From a virus: a stretch of 64,000 bases of DNA. Positions within the stretch are counted from its first letter, which is position 1, and every line of letters starts with the position of its first letter. Under the pieces are notes generated by a model, which had not been told where the DNA came from, did no database searches, and worked only from the letters and a program-made list of their open reading frames with translations. A program made the position numbers and the translations under genes. Positions 2,126 to 62,837 of this stretch are shown piece by piece. The stretch is from IMG/VR virus record IMGVR_UViG_3300021478_000016, positions 78,433-142,432 of that record. One strand, 5' to 3'.

Positions 2126-2934
2126 TGCACGCGCTTCGAGTCGACGCGTACCCACTTGCGCTTGTGGCTAGAGGCCTCGGAGTCGAGCTTCAGCCTGATG
2201 TCTTCCTTCATGGCGATGCGGACGAGATGGGAGATGCCGCGCGTCACATCGCCATCTCGAGCCTCTGGGAAGGCCTTGTTCGCCTCTGCGGCCCCATCTC
2301 GCAGCCGGCAGAAGAAGTACGCCGCCTGTCTCATGCTGCGCAACGCGAAGCTGAAGTACGCGTAGGCCACTTCCAGATCTTTCTGAGCGTGGAAGAAGTC
2401 ACGTGGTGCCTTGGAGACCATCTGCTGGCCGAGCATGATGAAGTGCAGCCAGGGCTCTTGCGTCTTCATGAAGTGCGCGGCGAGAATCAGATACGTCTCA
2501 TCTACGCTCAGGAAGACCTTGGCCCAGTCCATCACCTCGACGGCTGTGAGTGTACGCAGGTCGCTCTTCAAGGCATTGGCGACACGGCGGTACATCGCCT
2601 CGATGTCATACGGATCTTCCGGGAGCCTTCTTTCTTTAGCCCCGAAGAGATCTAGGACTTCATCGAGCTTGCGTTCCACCCTCTTGCCGACAGCGTATGC
2701 AGTCAGGGCTCGGTTGTAGATCTTCGAGAGATGGACTCGGTCCTCGACCACCTTGAGGACCTCAGCCACATCCGAGATGTGGAACATCGGCTTCGCACCT
2801 GCTGGATTGCAGGACTGGAGAATGCCCTGGGCGATCATCTTGTTGACCGCACCGAGTGTGACGCAGAGAGTCCGTGCAACTTCGACCTTGGTCAGCAGCA
2901 GGTCGTCCGGAGCCTTCTCTTCGGCTTTCGGCAT
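2122..2934 (-). CDS. helix-turn-helix protein, possible small terminase or regulator
   Basis: A 270-residue protein whose N-terminus (about 12-62) has the excisionase/MerR-like winged-helix pattern: 'LLLTKVEVARTLCVTLGAVN' is followed by a wing and a 'FHISDVAEVLKV' helix. The rest is alpha-helical with no family I recognise. It lies antisense between terminase and a virion gene, on the strand opposite to the head operon. A DNA-binding protein next to terL could be the small terminase subunit, but the opposite orientation fits a regulator equally well. The ATG is preceded by 'TAGGAA'. Only about 40 nt separate its start from the divergent gene at 2975, so two promoters must be packed there. Confidence 0.7.
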   Translation of the reverse strand: MPKAEEKAPDDLLLTKVEVARTLCVTLGAVNKMIAQGILQSCNPAGAKPMFHISDVAEVLKVVEDRVHLSKIYNRALTAYAVGKRVERKLDEVLDLFGAKERRLPEDPYDIEAMYRRVANALKSDLRTLTAVEVMDWAKVFLSVDETYLILAAHFMKTQEPWLHFIMLGQQMVSKAPRDFFHAQKDLEVAYAYFSFALRSMRQAAYFFCRLRDGAAEANKAFPEARDGDVTRGISHLVRIAMKEDIRLKLDSEASSHKRKWVRVDSKRVH

Positions 2935-2974
2935 GTGCTATTCCTACAGTAGAATCCACCAGGGAGCACTGACA

Positions 2975-4258
2975 ATGGACCTTCCGTTCCTGATGCTCTC
3001 CCAGTCGCGTGGACGCTCGATCTCCGGCGAGGAGCTCGAGGCGTTCGGCAAGAAGGCTGCGGAGCTCTGGTCTTCGAGCGAGAAGACCCTGAACGATGCC
3101 GTCGTCGAGACCGTCAAGCAGGCCGGACTCACGCCGGAGCAGGTGCGGAGGGTCGTCGAGTTCGCGAACACCTCGGCGTACCTCGGCGAGTTCAAGAAGG
3201 AGGGCTCCACCCATCGGGTCATCGAGTTCTCAGGTGGCCCGGCAGACCCAGCGGCCGTCCTCCAGGACCTCAACGACGGTGGTGGAGGCTCGGTCCGGGA
3301 TCGAGGCATGCTCGACTATCAGAGCCCCCCCTCTCGCAGCAAGACCGCCTCGACCGACGAAGACCTGTCGCTCAAGCAGGCATTCGAGGTGGAGAAGTCG
3401 GCTGGCATCCCGGAAGAGAACCCTCTCGGCGACGTCATCGACCTACGCGAGAAGATGGCGGGTCTGCATGACCACATCACTTCACAGATCAGCGGCCTCG
3501 AGGTCATGTACATGGATCTCTGCGAACGTCTCTTCGAGAACGTGAAGCAGGCGTCTCTCGAGGGGTACACACTCGGCGAGGTCGTGCAGGTCTGGTCGAA
3601 GGTGACCGACGAACCCGTCTTCTTCAAGACGGCCTTCGACATGCTCTCGAAGCGTCTGGTCGACAACGAGGTCTTCCGCTCCACCCTGGACATCGCCGAG
3701 TCCCTCGAGAAGACGGGGTCCTCGCGGCTGGTCAACATGGGTCACCCGTTGATCGCCGACTTCCAGGAGTACTGCGACGTCCTGATGAAGCTCGCCGGTC
3801 TGCGCGGGCAGCAGGAGAACGCCGCCTCGGCCCTTCAGGAGACCACGGAGTTCATCCTCCGTCCGGAGAAGCGCGCGAGTTTTCGCGATAGCTCCTCGGC
3901 CAGCCAGCAGGCCGGAGAGCTGAAGCAGGCTGCTGGTGGGGCGATCGGCCAAGTGCTCGACGTCGCTCGTGCCGCCGGCGAGAAGGTGGCGCCGGCTGCC
4001 GGCAAGGTCGTCGGTTCCGTCATCGGACAGGGCCCTGGAGCTCAGGAGGCCGGCAAGTACATCGGCAAGGCCATCCAGTACACGCCGCACGCCATCGGCG
4101 CGGCTCTCGGCCTGCGCGCACTTCAGCATCTACAGGCGGCGGGCCAGAGTCCGATCGGACACGCCGTCAAGTCCTTCGTGCCCGGCACGGCGGACTACCA
4201 GCAGAAGCAGTACGAGCTCCAGATGCGGTACGGCGGCATGCCGTTCGGGACCTACTGA
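2975..4258 (+). CDS. putative virion structural protein (427 aa)
   Basis: I chose the ATG at 2975 because 'AGGGAG' lies 8 nt upstream; an in-frame extension to 2753 would run into the divergent gene. The N-terminal half is helical and charged ('LTPEQVRRVVEFANTSAYL'). The middle is predicted helical. The last 120 residues are Ala/Gly-rich with small-residue repeats ('GAIGQVLDVARAAGEKVAPA', 'IGAALGLRALQHLQ'). It starts the head operon and is 8 nt from the next gene. It lacks portal features that I can recognise. A virion or internal head protein is inferred from position only. Confidence 0.65.
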   Translation: MDLPFLMLSQSRGRSISGEELEAFGKKAAELWSSSEKTLNDAVVETVKQAGLTPEQVRRVVEFANTSAYLGEFKKEGSTHRVIEFSGGPADPAAVLQDLNDGGGGSVRDRGMLDYQSPPSRSKTASTDEDLSLKQAFEVEKSAGIPEENPLGDVIDLREKMAGLHDHITSQISGLEVMYMDLCERLFENVKQASLEGYTLGEVVQVWSKVTDEPVFFKTAFDMLSKRLVDNEVFRSTLDIAESLEKTGSSRLVNMGHPLIADFQEYCDVLMKLAGLRGQQENAASALQETTEFILRPEKRASFRDSSSASQQAGELKQAAGGAIGQVLDVARAAGEKVAPAAGKVVGSVIGQGPGAQEAGKYIGKAIQYTPHAIGAALGLRALQHLQAAGQSPIGHAVKSFVPGTADYQQKQYELQMRYGGMPFGTY

Positions 4259-4941: not shown

Positions 4942-6732
4942 ATGATCTACAAGGTCAGCTACTACCTCGGCAGTGACCCGAGAGGTCCTGCCGCCATCCC
5001 CCTCTTCACAGAGAAAACGGATGGGTACTTCGAGAAGGTGGCTGCACCCAAGCTTCTGCCCGATGTGGTGAAGTACATCGAGAACCTCAAGCCCCGCAGT
5101 GACGCGCAGTACGTGCTCGTCAACGCGATGGGTGCTGGGGAGTTCTGGGGATCGAACATCAACGGAGACTACTTCCCCGAGACTGCGCTCATCCATCGAC
5201 CGGACAACTGGACAGGCAATCCACTACTCGACAAGATCCGCTCGAAGGATTGGCCGTACGGCTACCCGACCTTCTACAACGCGAAGCCCTTCCTCCACCA
5301 CCGCAACAAGGACTACCCTCCGCACAACCACCCCTCGTTCGGAGAGATCGAGCTTGCAGCTTGGAATCCGAACATGAAGCGGGTGGAGTTGGTACACAGG
5401 ATCGACAAGGACCTGTGTGCGAAGGGTGGTGGTCTGGGTCTCTGGGACAAGCTCAAGGCCGGTGACTATCCGGACACGTCGATGGGTTGCAAGGTGCCTT
5501 TCGACACGTGCTCCATCTGCCTCGACGAGCAGCGCTACAGAGAGGCTCTCGCCACGTTCGAGCCGGGCAAGCACAAGAGCCCAGGCGAGGCGGTGCTGGT
5601 CATCCACGAGAAGAAGCCCATCCGCGGTGTCTCCAAGACGCGCAACGACTACTGCTCGCACGCGCGGGACATGATGAACCGCATCTTGCCTGACGGCAGG
5701 AAGGTCTTCGTCACGAACGACTTCCCGAAGTTCTTCGACGATTCGTTCGTCTTCATCGGTGCGGACAAGACCGCCAAGATGATGATGAAGATCGCCGATG
5801 ACGAGAACTTCACGCCCACCGCTCGTGCCTTCTACGGTGTGCCGTCGGGGACAGCTACGTACTCGCCCGAGCTCGACATGAACGGCGGGGTGGACTCGTC
5901 AACCAAGCCCGAGGCAGATGAGGACATGAAGGTGGGTGAGGCCCACGACTTCGAGGCGATCCGCCTGATGTTCAAGGTCGCCGAGGCCAAGGGTGCAGAG
6001 ATGGACAAGGAGGTTGTCCCCTCCCAGTTCGCTGGCAAGGCGATTCCAGTGCTCACGCAGAAGGAGTCGGACCTGCCCAAGAGTGTCATCGACGCACTCT
6101 CGACGCGCTCTCCGGAGGAGGCTCTCTCGACGACGACGGGCATGGGGATCGTGCTTCGTCCGCACGAGTTCCAGCGGATGATGCTCAAGACCCTGGGACA
6201 GCACTCGATGGCCGACGAGCTCGAGTCTGCGGGTCTGGTCTTTCCGAAGACCAAGGACGAGGCCCCCGTGAAGATGCACAGTTCTCTCTTCAGCGACGTG
6301 CTGGCAAAGCTGCTGATTCCCCTGCTTTCAGGCCGTTCTGCATTCGGCCCGTTCATCGAGCGGCGGTGCGTCATGATCGTTGCCGGACCGGGGGGTGAGC
6401 CAGAGAAGAGGGCTTCTTCCCTTACAACGCCCCTCCTGCGTAAGATAGGAGCTGCGTACAACGGGTATCGCCGTCAGATGATGAACTTCATCACCGAATC
6501 GCAGAGCGTCCTCGCCCAGTCTTCGCTGGGTGATTCTTCGCTCTCGAAGCTTGCACACCACCCGGTGAACGAGCTATTCACTCCTCTGACGGCCGCGTAT
6601 CTCCGAGATGCCTTCATCGACGAGATGGGCGAGCTCTCAATCAAACAGGCTCACGCCGGCGTGGAGAGGGGATTCCCCTCGAGGAACACGCGAGACACCT
6701 CGAATCTAGTGGAGGATCTCCATGCCCGGTGA
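4942..6732 (+). CDS. putative prohead maturation protease with fused C-terminal region
   Basis: Candidate head-maturation protease (596 aa) in the usual place, upstream of scaffold candidates and major capsid protein. The first 245 residues show an HK97-protease-like order: 'GSNINGDYFPE' (70-80), a His pair in 'FLHHRNKD' (119-120), a strand region 'MKRVELVHRIDKD', and 'DTSMGCKVPFDTC' with candidate nucleophile Ser180. Cys183, Cys190, Cys193, Cys238 and His240 could form a zinc site. The His and Ser assignments are by analogy. The C-terminal 330 residues are unusual for a simple protease and include 'RDAFIDEMGEL', related to the short tag found in the 60-63 kb genes. Its end overlaps the next gene by 11 nt. 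Confidence 0.6.
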   Translation: MIYKVSYYLGSDPRGPAAIPLFTEKTDGYFEKVAAPKLLPDVVKYIENLKPRSDAQYVLVNAMGAGEFWGSNINGDYFPETALIHRPDNWTGNPLLDKIRSKDWPYGYPTFYNAKPFLHHRNKDYPPHNHPSFGEIELAAWNPNMKRVELVHRIDKDLCAKGGGLGLWDKLKAGDYPDTSMGCKVPFDTCSICLDEQRYREALATFEPGKHKSPGEAVLVIHEKKPIRGVSKTRNDYCSHARDMMNRILPDGRKVFVTNDFPKFFDDSFVFIGADKTAKMMMKIADDENFTPTARAFYGVPSGTATYSPELDMNGGVDSSTKPEADEDMKVGEAHDFEAIRLMFKVAEAKGAEMDKEVVPSQFAGKAIPVLTQKESDLPKSVIDALSTRSPEEALSTTTGMGIVLRPHEFQRMMLKTLGQHSMADELESAGLVFPKTKDEAPVKMHSSLFSDVLAKLLIPLLSGRSAFGPFIERRCVMIVAGPGGEPEKRASSLTTPLLRKIGAAYNGYRRQMMNFITESQSVLAQSSLGDSSLSKLAHHPVNELFTPLTAAYLRDAFIDEMGELSIKQAHAGVERGFPSRNTRDTSNLVEDLHAR

Positions 6733-7609
6733 CATGAACGAGTTTCTGGCGGCAGCGTACGCCACGGCCCAGCCGGCACCCGTGCACACGGATGCGGCAG
6801 AGAAGGTCGCGCACGCAGAGCTGTTCGCCAAGCTGGCCGCAGAGAGCGGCCTGGACCTGACGCAGCTCACGGACGAGCAGATCGCGGCTGCCTGGAACGA
6901 GTTCCGGACGCAGGTGACGACGAAGACGGCCGAGGCGGGTCAGCCTGCGGGCCAGACCAAGGCTGCGGGCGAGCACGGTCACGCGCACAAGCACGAGCAC
7001 AAGGAAGCCGCGGCGAAGCGCGAGTTCGAGCAGACCAAGCAGGCGCAGGTCGAGTGGGAGCAGAAGAACGCCGAGGCCGACTTCCTCGGTCGTCGGATGG
7101 CCCACGCCTACGTGGACGAGCTGAAGAAGATCGCCAGCGCAACGGGCAGCCTGCCCGGTCAGACGGCGCCGGCGGCAGCTCCCGGGGAGAGCAAGGAGGC
7201 AGCGATGCCCCCGTTCCTCCAGAAGCTCAAGGGCCACGCCGCGGCAGCGGCCGGCAAGGCGAAGGACAAGGGCAAGGACGCCGTCGAGACAGCCAAGAAG
7301 CACAAGGGTCACGCCGCCGCGGCAGCCGGTGGTGCGGCAGCCGGCGCGGCCGGCGGCTTCATGGCGGGCAAGAGCAAGAAGGCGTCGGCGCTCGACGAGC
7401 TCGCGGCCCTCAAGGCGGTCGAGAAGGTCGCCGAGGCGGGTCTCGATGCGAACGAGGCGGCCGAGAAGATCGCCGCCATCTTCGGCAAGGGTGAGGTCAA
7501 GGACAGCGAGAAGATCGCGGGCGTCGAGGACTTCAACACGGCCCTCGAGGTCCGGTCTCTCGAGCTGCTCGAGCAGGTCGGCTACAAGGTCGAGTGGAAG
7601 CAGGCCTGA
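6722..7609 (+). CDS. Ala/Lys-rich virion, core or scaffold candidate
   Basis: A 295-residue, highly charged, Ala-rich protein starting after GGAGG inside the end of the protease gene. It begins 'MNEFLAAAYATA' and has a His-rich stretch near residue 85 ('HGHAHKHEHKE'), the tag-like 'MAHAYVDELKKIA' around 126-138, two 'KGHAAAAAG' repeats and a Gly/Ala hydrophobic segment near 200. Its composition and position between protease and capsid gene are typical of scaffold or core proteins, but the glycine-zipper segment is not. Function is inferred from position. Confidence 0.6.
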   Translation: MPGDMNEFLAAAYATAQPAPVHTDAAEKVAHAELFAKLAAESGLDLTQLTDEQIAAAWNEFRTQVTTKTAEAGQPAGQTKAAGEHGHAHKHEHKEAAAKREFEQTKQAQVEWEQKNAEADFLGRRMAHAYVDELKKIASATGSLPGQTAPAAAPGESKEAAMPPFLQKLKGHAAAAAGKAKDKGKDAVETAKKHKGHAAAAAGGAAAGAAGGFMAGKSKKASALDELAALKAVEKVAEAGLDANEAAEKIAAIFGKGEVKDSEKIAGVEDFNTALEVRSLELLEQVGYKVEWKQA

Positions 7610-7631: not shown

Positions 7632-8933
7632 GTGGTCGCCGGTCGTCTGAAGCTCGCTGAAGATCCGACGGCCCCTGTCCGCGCCCAAGCTGCTGCCTCC
7701 TCGATCCCGCAGGTCACTCTTCCGACGCTTCCCGCTCCCGCAGGCAAGAAAGGTCCAGTAGGAACTTCACCTCGAACGAATTACTCTCGAGTGAACACGG
7801 GTGCTCCGCTGGCGCCTGACGCCGGCGCGGCGGAACAAAAGAGCCTTCAACCAAAGTACGGGTCGATCATGATGAACGGAACGAGCCAAGCACACACGCC
7901 GACCCTCCAGGACATGGTCAAGGCAGCCCAGACGGGTGCCCTCAGCCGGTCCCGCATCGCGACGGAGGCCCAGCGCCAGCTCGACAACGTCGGCGGAGAG
8001 AAGACCGCCGAGGAGATGTGCGAGAAGTGCAAGAAGCCGATGGAGCACTGCACGTGCAAGGCCGAGAAGAAGGGCTCTGCCTCGAAGGTCTCGACGGCGT
8101 ACGCCACGAAGGCGGCGGAGGCTCTCGAGTATCTCGCGCACGAGCTCAAGACGGAGAAGAAGGCCGCTCCGAACGCGCCGCCTCCGCACATGACCGAGCG
8201 TACGGTGGGCCCCGGTGAGGGTCCTGGCGCGATCGAGGTCTCGCACGCGACGGCGAGCACGCCGTTGCCCGACCACAAGGGTCAGGGCCATCAGCAGCCG
8301 CCGATGAAGCCGGGTGGCGAGAAGGTCTTGAAGGGCGAGCACGGCGAGACGCAGATGGCCACGAACATGGACCATCCGACGCACGGCACGACCCCGCAGA
8401 AGACGGTCGGCAAGACCGCTGCGGCGGAGCTCTACAAGGCGAACCTCACGAAGATGCTCGGCAAGGAGGCCGCGGAGAAGGTCGTTCAGACGAAGACCGC
8501 CGCTGCGGAGCTCTACAAGAAGAACTGCGAGCGCATGGGCATCAAGGTGGCCGAGGACGCCATCTTCCCGGCGCACATCACCGCGGGTCCGGCCGTGGCT
8601 CCCGAGACGAGCCAGGCAGGTCAGCCGGGTGGCGCGCCCGCCGGCGGGATGCCGCAGGGCCGCAAGGGGACCGACAGCAACCAGTCGTCGATCGACATCA
8701 CCAAGGGCCAGGCGAAGTCCGACCCGAAGTCGGACCTCAAGAAGTGGTTCGACGAGCCGGCCCTCTCGGGGTCCACGGACTCGACGCTCAGCGCGGCCTT
8801 CGACAACACGGGTCGCGCCGGCACCAAGTACGCGAGCAAGGACGAGCAGGGCGACGAGAAGGTGGCGACGGCAGCGGCTCGCGCGCTCCTCGAGAGTCTC
8901 CTCGAGAGCGTCAAGGGCCCCAAGGCAGCCTGA
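7632..8933 (+). CDS. hypothetical virion protein with CxxC cluster and internal repeat
   Basis: The 433-residue product starts at GTG after 'GGTGAAGGA'. The protein is largely disordered in appearance. Three recognisable patches are a cysteine cluster 'CEKCKKPMEHCTC' near 130 that could bind zinc, a helical 'KAAEALEYLAHELK', and a tandem repeat 'TAAAELYKANLTKMLG' / 'TAAAELYKKNCERMGI' around 264-302. It sits just upstream of the capsid genes, so it is probably a head or core component; no family name is justified. Confidence 0.55.
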   Translation: MVAGRLKLAEDPTAPVRAQAAASSIPQVTLPTLPAPAGKKGPVGTSPRTNYSRVNTGAPLAPDAGAAEQKSLQPKYGSIMMNGTSQAHTPTLQDMVKAAQTGALSRSRIATEAQRQLDNVGGEKTAEEMCEKCKKPMEHCTCKAEKKGSASKVSTAYATKAAEALEYLAHELKTEKKAAPNAPPPHMTERTVGPGEGPGAIEVSHATASTPLPDHKGQGHQQPPMKPGGEKVLKGEHGETQMATNMDHPTHGTTPQKTVGKTAAAELYKANLTKMLGKEAAEKVVQTKTAAAELYKKNCERMGIKVAEDAIFPAHITAGPAVAPETSQAGQPGGAPAGGMPQGRKGTDSNQSSIDITKGQAKSDPKSDLKKWFDEPALSGSTDSTLSAAFDNTGRAGTKYASKDEQGDEKVATAAARALLESLLESVKGPKAA

Positions 8934-9898: not shown

Positions 9899-11023
9899 AT
9901 GAGCGTCCCCGCGAGAGTCATGAACGACCTCTTCACGCAGAAGCTCGGCACTGCGGAAGGCAAGGAGAAGATCGCCGAGTACGGCGGCACATACGTGCGC
10001 GACCGTCTGCGTGAGGTGAGCTACGCGCGGAAGGTCATTCCGCCGCAGCAGGTCACTCGCGCGGACTGCCAGCGGTCGGTCAACCACGACACGCTGGTGA
10101 AGATCGTGGACGTCGAGCCGCAGAGCCGCGCGCTCACGCTCACGTTCCGTGGTCAGCCGACGGCCCGCTTCATCCGCGGTCCGAAGGCCGAGGTCGCCTT
10201 CTTCACCGTCTCCTCGGAGATGTTCCAGAAGACGGAGCAGGAGCTTCTCGCCTACGAGATGCCCATCACCAAGATCATCGAGGACAACTCGGTGAAGGAC
10301 ATCCAGGAGATCGAGGACCGCGAGTTCACGATCAACATCGAGGCGGCGGTTCAGGCGCTCCAGCAGCAGGCCAACGGCGGCGCGGTGACGACGCTCAACG
10401 CGGCGTCCATCCATGCCGGCACGGTGGTCGAGTTCTCCGTCCGCAAGGGCGAGCTCGCGCGCAACTCGACGCTCGCGGGCAGCGCCACCGTCCTGCCCAT
10501 CCAGCGGCCGGACCTCGTGAACCTCTTCAAGCTGCTGGACGGCAACAGGCTGCGCTCCGAGCGCGTCCTGATGACGGAGGTCGACTGGGACGATCTGCTC
10601 CAGTGGACGGTCGAGGACTTCGGCGACCGGCTCCAGTCGGAGACGGCCGTGGACGGCTACAAGTACAACACGCTGCTCGGCCGCGCGTACATCCGCACGG
10701 TCAAGACGGACATCCTCCGTCCGGGCAACGTGTACGTCTTCACCCGTCCGGAGTTCTTCGGGAAGTTCTACGTCCTGAACAACTCGAAGTTCTACATCGA
10801 CAAGATCGCGAACATGATCACCTTCCAGGCATGGGAGGACATCGCGATCGGCATTCTCAACATCGCCGCCGTGCGCAAGCTCGAGCTCTACTCGGGCGAC
10901 GCGACGACGAACAACGCGGACGGCATCCTCGCGTCCGTGATTCCCGTGACGGAGGACCAGCTCGGTGCGGTGAACAACCAGGTCGACGCCGGCCTCCAGT
11001 TCCCGCAGGTCCAGCAGTTCTGA
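9899..11023 (+). CDS. major capsid protein (HK97 fold)
   Basis: The 374-residue shell protein. It starts at ATG after 'AAGGAGAAAG'. The pattern fits HK97-fold capsid proteins: a helical N-terminus, 'YARKVIPPQQVTRADCQRSV', a long spine helix around 'DIQEIEDREFTINIEAAVQA', and a late P-domain-like end 'AWEDIAIGILNIAAVRKLEL'. It is flanked by decoration candidate and terminator, so it can be made at high level. The sequence shows no obvious large N-terminal delta domain; scaffolding may therefore come from one of the upstream Ala/Lys-rich proteins. Confidence 0.85.
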   Translation: MSVPARVMNDLFTQKLGTAEGKEKIAEYGGTYVRDRLREVSYARKVIPPQQVTRADCQRSVNHDTLVKIVDVEPQSRALTLTFRGQPTARFIRGPKAEVAFFTVSSEMFQKTEQELLAYEMPITKIIEDNSVKDIQEIEDREFTINIEAAVQALQQQANGGAVTTLNAASIHAGTVVEFSVRKGELARNSTLAGSATVLPIQRPDLVNLFKLLDGNRLRSERVLMTEVDWDDLLQWTVEDFGDRLQSETAVDGYKYNTLLGRAYIRTVKTDILRPGNVYVFTRPEFFGKFYVLNNSKFYIDKIANMITFQAWEDIAIGILNIAAVRKLELYSGDATTNNADGILASVIPVTEDQLGAVNNQVDAGLQFPQVQQF

Positions 11024-54887: not shown

Positions 54888-56981
54888 GTGGCAAGCGGTC
54901 GAGCCGGGAACGGTGGCCGTTACGGTGCTGGCAAGTCGGTGAACGTCCGTCGACCCGTGCGTGGGTTGGAGATCAAAGACGACACGTATTGTATGGTGAA
55001 GGTCATCGATGCCGCAGGCAACGAGCTCCCGCTCTTCGACTCAGGAAGTCAGGGTGGGCGGACCACCCAGTATGCCAACTTCATCCTCCAGTCGGTTCAA
55101 GAGGTCCGGATGGAGAAGCAGCAGATCGTCGAAACCTTCGGTGACCCCTACATCTTCTTCTTCGGAGAGCAACCCAGGTTCCTTGACGTCACGGCCATTC
55201 TGATCAACAGCCTCGACTTCAACTGGCACGGAGAGTGGTGGTACAACTACGACAACTACCTGCGGGGGACGAAGCTCACTGAGATGGGTGCTCGCGTCTA
55301 CCTCTTCTACGACGACATCATCGTGGAAGGGTACATGCTGATGGCACAGTCGAACCTGACATCAGAAGGTCCGCTCCTCGCGACGCTCACCTTCCGGCTG
55401 TTCGTGACCAACTACACGAACATCTCCATCACCGGCAGCGACTACTACCCAGTCCGTGCCAGCGCGCAGCTCTTCACGTCGGTCGATCTGACCGCCTCGG
55501 ACTCTTCGCAACTCCTCACGCCTACCCAACCTGATCAACCCGTGCCCCAGACGGTGCTCAACCAGCAGGCCTACCTGGCCCTGCTCCAACAGACGGGAGC
55601 AGCACAGCTCGACCAGGAACTTCAGAAGATCTCCGGACTCGATGAGCTGACTGCCGAGGAGCAACAGCTCGCTGCTCAGAATGCCCTCAACTCGGCTCAA
55701 GGGTTTGGCGGGGGCGGCCTGCTTACCCAGATGCTCCAACTGGGTCTCCAGAGCACCACGTTCCCTGCCCAGAACATCTCAACGTTCCTCGACAACGTTC
55801 AGCAGGCCTTTGCTGCTGCGATGCAGTCGGCCTTCGGAGGCCCACAGGCAGACCCAAACTTGGTGCGACAGCTCCCGCTCCGCAGCAAGATCACCGACAA
55901 CACGGACGAGTACCTGAGTTGGGTGGGTACAGATACCTTGGCCCCTGGCGTGGCTCTGCCCACCCAACAGAGTCCGGGCGTCTTCGGTCCAGTCGGTGGT
56001 GACACCGAAGACATCGTGGACGAGCTCAATCGACAGGCCTGCATGCGGGGATGTCAGCTCGATCCCTCCAACTTCTTCGGCTTCGGTGTCGTGCCCTACC
56101 AGCCAGGCCAGGGCTTCATCACGAACGGGGCCTACGGGCGTCCGTCTGGTGCTGGCGGTGCGTTTGCTGGTGCTGGGGTGAGCATAGGCGGGGGTGTTGG
56201 CATCTCAGCCGGCGCCGGCTTCTCCGGGACCGTGGGTACCCCCTTCGCGCCTGGCGCCGCTGGAGGTGTCGGTCTGGGGGTGGGGGGTGGCATCGGAGGG
56301 TCGACGGACCTCATCAACCTCCAGCGCTCCAACGGCCAGTCGGGCTTCTTCGGAGGGTCGTTTGCCGGGCCTGGGAGCCCCTCAGGAGCAGGCATCTCCC
56401 CTGGGGTGGGCTACGGCTATGGCCAGGGCTTCGGCGCCGGCTTCTCGGCCTCCTACGGGTACACCGCTGGCGTCGGCGGGGCCTCGGGGGGAGGCATGGG
56501 CGGCACCTTCGGCCCCGGAGTGGGCGGTGGCCTCGGCGGGTGGGGTTCAGGGACGTACGGCAACCCCCTGTTCCGACAGTCGGGCAACCCTCTGGTGCAG
56601 AACTTCCTCCAGTCGCCGTATGGGCAGCCTACCGGGACACCCTTCGGCCTGCCTGTTACCGCCGCAGGCCCCCAGTCCCAGAACGTATATGCGTTCACGG
56701 CGGGCATCGGTCCGGACGGCCGCATCCAGACGGCAGCGTTCGGAGGTACGAACCCCTACGGAGTCGGCGCTTACGCAGGGCCTGGTTTCCCGGGTGGGTT
56801 CGGGGCAACATCGACGCTCTCCCCACCCACCATGTTTGGGGGATCTGTCGACGTGGCTGCGGTAGCCAGCTTCAGTGCGGGCATCTCTGGTGACGGCGCC
56901 TTCGGTGTCCAAGCGGTGGCTGGCACATTCGATCCCACTCTCCAAGGCGGCGGCAACGCTCCCTGCAACCTGGGGTACTAG
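54888..56981 (+). CDS. baseplate/tail protein with long Gly-rich tail, start uncertain
   Basis: From GTG 54888 it has 697 residues, but this GTG has no ribosome site. The same frame is open and protein-like upstream to 54825 ('CPITVFIELTLDDFDRVFQQ') without ATG, GTG or TTG, right where the HNH gene ends. Residues 30-190 are alpha/beta and folded ('PYIFFFGEQPRFLDVTAIL', 'NWHGEWWYNYDNYLRGTKL'); the second half is Gly/Ala/Pro-rich. Position between tape measure and hub suggests a baseplate protein. Confidence 0.6.
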   Translation: MASGRAGNGGRYGAGKSVNVRRPVRGLEIKDDTYCMVKVIDAAGNELPLFDSGSQGGRTTQYANFILQSVQEVRMEKQQIVETFGDPYIFFFGEQPRFLDVTAILINSLDFNWHGEWWYNYDNYLRGTKLTEMGARVYLFYDDIIVEGYMLMAQSNLTSEGPLLATLTFRLFVTNYTNISITGSDYYPVRASAQLFTSVDLTASDSSQLLTPTQPDQPVPQTVLNQQAYLALLQQTGAAQLDQELQKISGLDELTAEEQQLAAQNALNSAQGFGGGGLLTQMLQLGLQSTTFPAQNISTFLDNVQQAFAAAMQSAFGGPQADPNLVRQLPLRSKITDNTDEYLSWVGTDTLAPGVALPTQQSPGVFGPVGGDTEDIVDELNRQACMRGCQLDPSNFFGFGVVPYQPGQGFITNGAYGRPSGAGGAFAGAGVSIGGGVGISAGAGFSGTVGTPFAPGAAGGVGLGVGGGIGGSTDLINLQRSNGQSGFFGGSFAGPGSPSGAGISPGVGYGYGQGFGAGFSASYGYTAGVGGASGGGMGGTFGPGVGGGLGGWGSGTYGNPLFRQSGNPLVQNFLQSPYGQPTGTPFGLPVTAAGPQSQNVYAFTAGIGPDGRIQTAAFGGTNPYGVGAYAGPGFPGGFGATSTLSPPTMFGGSVDVAAVASFSAGISGDGAFGVQAVAGTFDPTLQGGGNAPCNLGY

Positions 56982-60372: not shown

Positions 60373-60750
60373 GTGAACCCGTACTTCGAGACCGTGCGTG
60401 CGGCCTTCCTCGACGAGCTCGAGAAGATCGCCGCATCATCCAAGCTGCTCCGTCATGGGAAGGCTCGGGTGGGTCGTCGCCCCCTTCGGGTTGCGACTCT
60501 GCTCCGCAAGGAGAAGGACGGGGAGATCTACAAGTTCAGCGGTGATGGGTCCATGGGAAACGTGGTGCCGTTCTCCAACGAGGATGCCCCAGGAGTAACC
60601 GGCCGTGCCGCTCAGGCACCGAAGTCCCCAAACGATGTCCCCTCTCGAGAAGATGGACGCGAGAACTCGGGTACCAAGATCCCTGGCACCGGTCGCTTCG
60701 TCATGGCGCCGGCAGCGGCCAACAGCCCCGAAGAACACGGCAACTACTAG
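60373..60750 (+). CDS. tag-bearing virion-protein candidate (125 aa)
   Basis: GTG start with a TAGACT box 14 nt upstream and no strong ribosome site. It begins 'MNPYFETVRAAFLDELEKIA' (the tag A-F-L-D-E-L-E-K-I-A at 11-20), then a basic region and a disordered Gly/Asn/Pro tail. First of five neighbours carrying variants of this tag. Function unknown. Confidence 0.55.
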   Translation: MNPYFETVRAAFLDELEKIAASSKLLRHGKARVGRRPLRVATLLRKEKDGEIYKFSGDGSMGNVVPFSNEDAPGVTGRAAQAPKSPNDVPSREDGRENSGTKIPGTGRFVMAPAAANSPEEHGNY

Positions 60751-60759
60751 GAGAGGCAG

Positions 60760-61212
60760 ATGAAGACCGCGTTCATCGACGAGTTCGAGAAGATCTCCAA
60801 CGCCGGCGGCGTGAGCTTTCTCCCCGGCCTGATGAAGACCGCCAGGCCGAACGAAGACTTCGCCGTCTCATCCAAGAAGTCGAACACTGGCAAGCCGGCC
60901 TACCCCATCCCGGACAAGAAGCACGCCATCTCAGCTCTGGGTTTCGCGAAGATGCACCACGACTCGGCAGATCTGGCCGAGGTCCGCAAGGACGTGGCAG
61001 CGAAGTACCCGGACCTGGTGCACAAGGCCGCCTCTGTCCTCGTCGCCGTCACGAAGTTCGCCAACGACTCGTGCGTGCCGAAGAAGGGCAAGGAGAAGGA
61101 CAGCAACATGGGCATGGGCACGTACGGCCCGGCCAGTGCGGCACCTCCGGGCATGATGGGTGGTCCCCCTCCCGGTGCTGCGATGAAGGCAACGATGCAG
61201 GCGGGGATGTGA
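60760..61212 (+). CDS. tag-bearing virion-protein candidate (150 aa)
   Basis: It starts after AGGAGAGGCAG. It begins 'MKTAFIDEFEKISNAGG' (tag at 4-12), then a helical part 'KKHAISALGFAKMHHDSAD', a cysteine and a Met/Gly/Pro-rich tail. No catalytic residues recognised. Confidence 0.55.
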   Translation: MKTAFIDEFEKISNAGGVSFLPGLMKTARPNEDFAVSSKKSNTGKPAYPIPDKKHAISALGFAKMHHDSADLAEVRKDVAAKYPDLVHKAASVLVAVTKFANDSCVPKKGKEKDSNMGMGTYGPASAAPPGMMGGPPPGAAMKATMQAGM

Positions 61213-61213
61213 C

Positions 61214-61531
61214 ATGCAGCCCTCGTTCACGGCCTTCAAGGAGGAGCTGCTCGCCATCAAGGAAGCTGGCGGCTTCTCTAATCTCATGCGCGGGCTGGCC
61301 TCTGAGGCTGGCACGCACAAGACGGAGATCGCCGGGCTCGGCGTGCTTGCCGCACCCAGTCTCGATGAGGCGCAGGCACACGCTCGAGCGGCTGTCGCTG
61401 GCGACTACAACAAGGCTGGCGTGGAGAAGAGGACTCTCCTCCCCCATGTTGCCAAGCCGGCCACGGAGCTCGCCGGACTCGGCATGCTGATGGGTCCCTC
61501 CATCGCGCATCTGAAGGGCTACGGTCCCTGA
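61214..61531 (+). CDS. tag-bearing virion-protein candidate (105 aa)
   Basis: The ATG is 1 nt after the previous stop. It begins 'MQPSFTAFKEELLAIKEAGG', a variant of the tag, then 'TEIAGLGVLAAPSLDEAQAH' and 'LAGLGMLMGPSIAHLKGYGP', with two small-residue hydrophobic repeats ('EIAGLGVLAAPS', 'ELAGLGMLMGPS'). Confidence 0.55.
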   Translation: MQPSFTAFKEELLAIKEAGGFSNLMRGLASEAGTHKTEIAGLGVLAAPSLDEAQAHARAAVAGDYNKAGVEKRTLLPHVAKPATELAGLGMLMGPSIAHLKGYGP

Positions 61532-62370
61532 TGAACCTCTCGTCCACCCTCGATGAGCTCGAGAAGCTTGGCGTCATCAGCGCCGAGGAGGCTCGTCGCA
61601 CGCTCGATCGCCTGGACAGCATCGAGAAGAGCAAGCCTACGTCCACGCAGGCGCTCCAGTACGGTGCTCTGGGGGCCGGGGCTGGAGCTCTCACCAGGGG
61701 GATTGGCCATGCCATCGAACACGGGCACCTTCCGACGAAGCGCAGCCTCCTGGGGGCAGCGGCTGGCGGAGCAGTTGGTCTGGGCGCTGTGCCTCTTCTT
61801 CGTACTGGTCTCGATCGTCATCGAGAACGCAACAAGCTGCGCTCTTTCATGGCGCAACCCGAGGTGAAGACGGCGGAGAACGAAGAGGAGTTGAAGGAGG
61901 CGCCGGCGGGGAAGCTGCCGGTGTCCTTCAGCAACATCGGGAAGATCTCGATGCCGGCGTCGTCGTACAGCACGCCCATCGAGGGAGCGAAGCCCAACAT
62001 CATGGAGAGTCGCGGGCCGATGCGTTCGATGCCCATCACGGCTCCCTTCCTGAGCCCGAAGGTGGCCTTCACGGTCTCGCAGTACAGCGGTCCGCTCAGC
62101 ATGGGTCCCTTCAAGATGGTGAGCGGCATGCCTCCGTTCACGGCGCCCTCGCTGCGCGCCGGCTTCACCAAGAAGCAGGATGCGCTCCAGATGGCGAAGA
62201 GTTCTGGGGCGATGGCTCAGACAGGGCTGACACCCAAGAGTCTTCTCTCCTCTGGCCAGGCGCTGGCCAAGCCGAAGATCACTAACCCTTCAGGCCCCAG
62301 CATCGGAGACCTCTCGAAGCCCATCGGCTTCGGCTCCAAGCTGCCGGGCGCGACGAAAGGGACGCTCTAA
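61531..62370 (+). CDS. tag-bearing virion protein with glycine zipper (279 aa)
   Basis: The ATG shares a base with the previous TGA. It begins 'MNLSSTLDELEKLGVISAEE' (tag 'LDELEKL'). Residues 43-90 are a hydrophobic small-residue segment ('YGALGAGAGALTRGIGHAIE', 'LLGAAAGGAVGLGAVPLLR'), possibly membrane-active, followed by a Ser/Pro/Met-rich remainder. Same plan as several proteins of the head region. Confidence 0.55.
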   Translation: MNLSSTLDELEKLGVISAEEARRTLDRLDSIEKSKPTSTQALQYGALGAGAGALTRGIGHAIEHGHLPTKRSLLGAAAGGAVGLGAVPLLRTGLDRHRERNKLRSFMAQPEVKTAENEEELKEAPAGKLPVSFSNIGKISMPASSYSTPIEGAKPNIMESRGPMRSMPITAPFLSPKVAFTVSQYSGPLSMGPFKMVSGMPPFTAPSLRAGFTKKQDALQMAKSSGAMAQTGLTPKSLLSSGQALAKPKITNPSGPSIGDLSKPIGFGSKLPGATKGTL

Positions 62371-62837
62371 TGCCTGCCTGGATTCACGATCGCGCGGAGC
62401 ACATCCTCGCGAAGAACCCCGACATGGGCAAGTCGACAGCCTTTGCCATCGCCACTCAGCAGAGCCACGCCACAGGGCATTCGCCCAAGGGCTACGGCAC
62501 AGCGCAAGGCAAGCGGAAGGCGAAGGCCAAGTTCGATACGCCGAAGGACGACGTGCAGTCGGCCAACCCTGGTGGTCTCGAGAGCCCCAAGATGGGGTCT
62601 GTGATGGTCGAAGCCTTCTTCGACGAACTGGGGAACATCAAGAACGCCGGGCTTCTGGAGGGCGTGAAGAAGGTGCTCACGACGCCCATACCAGGCACTC
62701 CGGAGATCTTCCCCCATGCAGCCATAGAGGCGGCAGGGAGGTTCGGGAAGACGGCTCCTGCTACTCTTCCCGCAGTCGCCAAGAAAACACCACAAGACTG
62801 GCGGGCCAACAGGGCTGCTGCCTGGAAGACACCGTAG
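62370..62837 (+). CDS. tag-bearing virion-protein candidate (155 aa)
   Basis: The ATG shares a base with the previous stop. 'MPAWIHDRAEHILAKNPDM' and 'STAFAIATQQSHATGHSPKG' form a small N-terminal helical domain I have seen in other phage structural proteins. The tag is internal here: 'MVEAFFDELGNIKNAG' at about 79-94. Basic, Pro-rich tail. Confidence 0.55.
   Translation: MPAWIHDRAEHILAKNPDMGKSTAFAIATQQSHATGHSPKGYGTAQGKRKAKAKFDTPKDDVQSANPGGLESPKMGSVMVEAFFDELGNIKNAGLLEGVKKVLTTPIPGTPEIFPHAAIEAAGRFGKTAPATLPAVAKKTPQDWRANRAAAWKTP

Follow-up and report, generated by a model that had tools for sequence, protein, structure and literature searches.

The capsid-targeting sequence (CTS) of phage T4, found on the internal proteins IPI, IPII and IPIII and on Alt, is the closest described system to the peptide reported here. 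The first ten residues of IPIII suffice for its packaging, and the targeting residues precede the processing residues, with gp22 as the probable partner (PMC9026906). In the case of Alt, C-terminal processing also happens (PMC5694885). Comparing the N-termini of gp22 (MLKEQLIAEA) and IPIII (MKTYQEFIAEA), we found an [FL]IAEA element in common. The propeptides of head and ejection proteins in the giant phages phiKZ and SPN3US mostly exceed 100 aa and are cut after glutamate (PMC5694885, PMC9026906). Finally, the part of the survey of polyvalent proteins of phages and conjugative elements considered here (Iyer et al. 2017, PMC5512222) predicts that InPase and GNAT domains are packaged in virions and injected, and mentions no tag of the kind described below; an open-access literature search found no description of it either.

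A stretch of 64,000 nucleotides was analysed (hereafter the window; bases 78,433-142,432 of a phage record of 142,432 b), in which five consecutive genes carry variants of one peptide. Like the T4 CTS, for which gp21 is the protease, this tag is a short peptide at the terminus of accessory proteins that are unrelated and poorly conserved, has a targeting part of aromatic/hydrophobic character ahead of a P3-x-P1-type site (predicted here), and co-occurs with a related element in a scaffold protein and with a protease of predicted gp21-type fold. Unlike the T4 CTS, its sequence is AFxDELxKIA, without a required L/I-x-E, the counterpart of which at the end of the tag is the predicted site K-x-[AGS]; moreover, it occurs in many phages on 97 or more families, it can move to the C-terminus, and the scaffold copy is internal. 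Because sequence and specificity differ, the tag cannot be counted as a T4 CTS, though it appears to work like one. With phiKZ and SPN3US (protease motif S/A-x-E) it would have in common head cargo with propeptides cut by a gp21-like protease, at several sites per precursor, but the tag has only ~10 residues and its predicted site ends in A, G or S. As far as the part of PMC5512222 considered here goes, cargo domains such as InPase and GNAT are also those of polyvalent proteins; these unite several effector domains in a polypeptide, whereas the tagged proteins are mostly small and single-domain under one common tag, with a few (608 and 714 aa) combining InPase with other regions.

Five tagged genes and the full motif

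Genes were called with our own hexamer model, and start codons are therefore approximate. All five tagged genes are on the + strand. The first (60373-60750, 125 aa) has AFLDELEKIA at residues 11-20 (60403-60432), ending in K-I-A, and the second (60760-61212, 150 aa) has AFIDEFEKIS at residues 4-13 (60769-60798), ending in K-I-S. In the third (61214-61531, 105 aa), the tag AFKEELLAIKEA covers residues 7-18 (61232-61267), with AFKEELLAIK starting at residue 7 and K-x-A placed at +8 from the F, not at +6. The fourth (61531-62370, 279 aa) carries TLDELEKLG at residues 6-14 (61546-61572), and the fifth (62370-62837, 155 aa) AFFDELGNIKNA at residues 82-93 (62613-62648). Since this last copy (AFFDELGNIK) starts at residue 82, it is internal and not N-terminal; it is preceded by an IHDRA..AFAIATQQ..HA domain, which is also present in G008_95, there with GLFDELDKIAK. 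The domain, in its longer form IHDRA..NP.M..S.AFAIATQQ.HA.G.SPK.YGT, recurs in the phage group (62370-62837; L124:5805-6281).

All peptides quoted in the sequence-only reading of the window were confirmed at the named genes, including AYVDELKKIA (6722, residue 129) and AFIDEMGEL (4942, residue 557). Its description of the five proteins as otherwise unrelated also holds, because pairwise BLASTP aligns the tag region only, and searches of the five against Pfam and PHROGs gave nothing significant. Relatives of the 60373 protein were found. For the 61531 protein, a scan of viral contigs found none, but a direct genome search showed that 12 of 18 related phages encode a homologue; one of these homologues (G001_179) has AFFDELEKLGA.

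The consensus given in that reading, F-x-(D/E)E-(L/F), is a real motif, but it lacks the K-[IL]-[AGS] half: the full form is [AS]-F-x-[DE]-E-[LFM]-x-K-[IL]-[AGS], mostly within 20 residues of the N-terminus. Outside the window, the same record holds the further copies AFRDELQKLA and AFVDEYCKIAG, as well as the C-terminal copies GFIDELTAIEARG and GFRDELTKLR, each running up to the stop. Motif discovery with comparison to shuffled proteins had been proposed as a check, and an unseeded EM run over nine genomes, which took the N-terminal segments of 1,735 non-redundant proteins, recovered AFxDELxKIA well above the shuffled sets (log-likelihood 546 versus 207-238). Within the five proteins, F-x-[DE]E-[LFM] has four exact matches against 0.018 expected, with four or more in none of 5,000 shuffles. 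A profile trained iteratively on the same genomes overstates significance, which one trained only on other genomes does not. The latter recovered 60373, 60760, 62370, 61531 and 6722 at 0 chance matches expected in the whole record, and left 61214 weak when taken alone (0.45 chance matches expected). Thus, the tag is present on all five consecutive proteins, as had been claimed, with 61214 weak by profile alone. Of the weaker head-region copies, the one at 6722 stands with 0 chance matches expected, but AFIDEMGEL lies outside the 14 best profile matches.

Head module and K-x-A signal

The head module of the window, also on the + strand, is bounded by the terminase large subunit (305-2125; phrog_675, E 5.8e-62) and includes a protease candidate, a scaffold-like gene and the major capsid protein (MCP; 9899-11023, phrog_2522), which defines the tag-carrying phage group. 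Two further head precursors are rich in K-x-A over eight genomes (2933-4258, 89 K-x-A versus 20 A-x-K; 7632-8933, 99 versus 36). In the MCP itself, K-x-A at residues 24-26 (EKIAEYGG) is kept in nearly all homologues and is a possible capsid maturation site.

The protease candidate (4942-6732, 596 aa) is encoded directly 5' of the scaffold-like gene. It has no Pfam or PDB sequence match to any protease family, a profile search of the PDB included. A structure model built from 28 homologues (mean pLDDT 72, pTM 0.46) has T4 capsid protease gp21 as its only confident match in the PDB (5JBL_B, prob 0.97, E 0.039), and in BFVD many prohead proteases are among the viral matches, also among those with E <1e-3. 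Because the PDB E-value is moderate, we treat the gp21 fold as likely, short of proven, and the model makes the candidate a likely gp21-like prohead protease. K32 (in FEKxA) is invariant, as is K536 (in K-x-A), upstream of the C-terminal AFxDE copy; H119, H120 and S180 are candidate His/Ser catalytic residues by conservation, being invariant in the 28 homologues. The length of the gene among relatives varies from ~550 to 1,339 codons (window 4942-6732, G008, G016, L079, L055), which suggests inteins or fused domains, and one homologue in the alignment matches InPase. The scaffold/core-like protein (6722-7609, 295 aa; helical, low complexity) carries AYVDELKKIA at residues 129-138, within an AlphaFold helix spanning 87-140. 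This internal copy is conserved across 40 relatives, and in the alignment of these homologues K-x-A is conserved at residues 28-30, 115-117 and 264-266.

To read a cleavage preference from genomes, the 12 genes upstream of the MCP were stripped of their tags and all X-x-Y pairs in them scored relative to shuffled sequences. K-x-A ranked first (520 versus 260, z 16.1; runner-up 6.8), as it did in distant relatives (z 11.5), and it was not the top pair in the rest of the genome. The same scan of T4 core and internal proteins placed I-x-E first and L-x-E fifth, the known specificity of gp21 (PMC9026906). In the head genes of the cultured Salmonella phage Arash and Vibrio phage D69, K-x-A and A-x-K number 40/16 and 44/15, respectively. 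The sites in the head genes read [LM]-E-K-[TILV]-A-[SA], a pattern equal to the tag's second half. In N-terminal tags, K-x-[AGS] is at +6 from the F in 147 of 188; where K is missing at +6, it is found at +8/+9 in 13 of 41 (IKEA, IKNA, QKEA; ~1.3 expected, estimated from the control rate). At C-terminal tags, K-x-[AGS] lies 6-12 residues upstream in six of six, about four of them independent, with a background of 0.19 per window. These placements put the site between tag and cargo on either side. Cleavage of T4-like L/I-x-E type within the tag was also considered and rejected, as the residue before D/E-E is unconstrained.

The bodies of the tagged proteins have the opposite composition. In representatives of 97 families, the ratio of K-x-A to A-x-K is 114/211 (0.54), compared with 520/245 (2.1) in head precursors and 1650/1643 (same strand) and 557/530 (opposite strand) in untagged genes, together 2207/2173 or ~1.0. 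The depletion in cargo against all other non-head genes is significant (Fisher p 1e-7), and the controls R-x-A, KA and K-x-x-A are balanced, with no such effect in cargo. This avoidance would be the expected outcome of sharing a compartment with a K-x-A protease and is, in our view, the strongest argument that tagged proteins enter the prohead. Two other genes of the record differ in the same count over nine genomes. Homologues of a 327-aa protein (record 55,932-56,914; window -22501 to -21518), near a tagged gene, have 107 K-x-A versus 18 A-x-K; this protein is probably another precursor of the core or scaffold. A late protein of 2,131 aa (record 65,969-72,363; window -12464 to -6069) is depleted (94 versus 176), as if it were exposed to the protease.

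Alternatively, K-x-A could serve docking instead of cleavage: the tag would still target the prohead or virion, K-x-A would add another contact for docking (to scaffold or protease), and the mature protein would keep its tag. A repeated docking site would match the conservation of K-x-A within the scaffold, the protease and other head proteins. We nevertheless find this account unlikely, since cargo bodies avoid K-x-A, the site lies between tag and cargo at whichever end, and the T4 calibration shows that a protease motif yields such a signal.

Tag-carrying phages and their cargo

The recurrence of the tag spans a large phage group. Among 33 contigs sampled via the tag alone, 29 encode the MCP lineage of the window, some at ~30% identity. 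In eight genomes, 53 of 53 strong tags share the strand of the MCP, on which 73% of the genes lie. In distant relatives (GC 36-43%), tagged genes are directly beside the protease gene in the head cluster (L317, L319, L321). No canonical tag was detectable in Salmonella phage Arash, the closest cultured relative, no tag-carrying isolate was found in the collections searched, and tblastn with the tag consensus and two window cargo proteins gave no match in named phages. An MCP search of GTDB genomes for hosts matched two metagenome-assembled contigs only. Since tagged genes come after large tail/baseplate-type genes in the window and several relatives, the destination of tagged proteins might instead be a different site of late assembly (tail/baseplate, membrane or replication compartment). 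This is improbable given the copies in the scaffold-like protein and the protease, the head-cluster location in distant relatives, the linkage to the MCP lineage, and a K-x-A signature common to head precursors only.

The tagged bodies form 60 families among the pattern matches and 97 among the 160 proteins of all loci. Their domains include SNF2/DEAD helicases, permuted papain amidases, ATP-dependent ligase, GNAT, MazG, InPase and Peptidase_C39, of which InPase, SNF2 helicase, GNAT and amidase are polyvalent or injected-effector types according to the part of PMC5512222 considered. The InPase of the present phage (record 22,283-22,795; PF18823, E 2e-40) has its tag at the C-terminus, as does its homologue in G001; the InPase of G004, 51% identical to the former and 64% to the latter, has it at the N-terminus. 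The tag is thus portable between both ends. In one small tagged family, MxFxDxTxxFFDELSxI... (L270, L284, L231, L249), the targeting half is found without K-x-A close by, and these proteins may remain tagged in the virion.

Neighbouring genes with leaders of similar length could also have arisen if a single leader-coding segment was recently duplicated, without selection for any function. However, the codons of the tag differ among the five window genes, so that these are not recent copies of one another; residues at position x vary freely, in contrast to the conserved F, E, L and K, and C-terminal and internal tags also occur, all of which make such an origin very improbable. A codon-degenerate DNA pattern for AFxDELxKIA found at least 120 stretches in IMG/VR, against 11 with a permuted-codon control; the tag lies within 20 aa of the predicted start in 77 of 92 examined sites, and the density of F-x-[DE]E-[LFM] in the first 20 residues is 14 times that of protein interiors. 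Although the pattern is short and helix-like and single-genome regex counts are modest, chance recurrence or a generic amphipathic helix with no common function is hardly credible and was rejected in view of the shuffles, the codon-permuted control, the profile trained without the present genome, the N-terminal density and the fixed F, E, L and K.

A probable capsid-targeting tag with a predicted protease site

Taken as a whole, AFxDELxKIA is best explained as a capsid-targeting sequence with an adjoining protease site, and we regard this as probable. The amphipathic helix (F..EL..I) would dock the cargo on the scaffold or core of the growing prohead, and the K-x-[A/G/S] beside it would be the recognition site of the gp21-like prohead protease of the lineage. 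This protease would cut the tag off the cargo, from either end, and would also cut up the scaffold before the head is filled with DNA; the freed cargo would stay in the virion and probably be injected with the DNA. Virion targeting in the manner of T4, as put forward in the sequence-only reading, is now the best-supported account, on the grounds of the MCP lineage, the late/head clusters, portability, the neighbour of likely gp21 fold and K-x-A, but the 62370 copy, being internal, does not conform to an N-terminal peptide. The tagged proteins without a nearby K-x-A, the lack of a detectable canonical tag in Arash and the moderate gp21 match count against the explanation.

We lean, if only slightly, towards a clade-wide plug-in packaging, in which a variable assortment of unrelated host-acting proteins is loaded into the heads of hundreds of large uncultured phages through a single portable tag of 10 residues, and is released by a prohead protease with a predicted, previously undescribed K-x-A specificity. 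If this is true, the T4 capsid-targeting principle would extend to a new lineage, with a prohead protease predicted to cut at K-x-A rather than after glutamate, and phage heads could be loaded with proteins by means of a new peptide. X-x-Y enrichment combined with depletion in cargo offers a general, genome-only way to predict prohead protease specificity. The tag would be a sequence-readable label for injected effectors, such that any AFxDELxKIA protein in a large uncultured phage group would be a predicted early effector and dozens of unknown genes would become testable candidates for anti-defence or host takeover.
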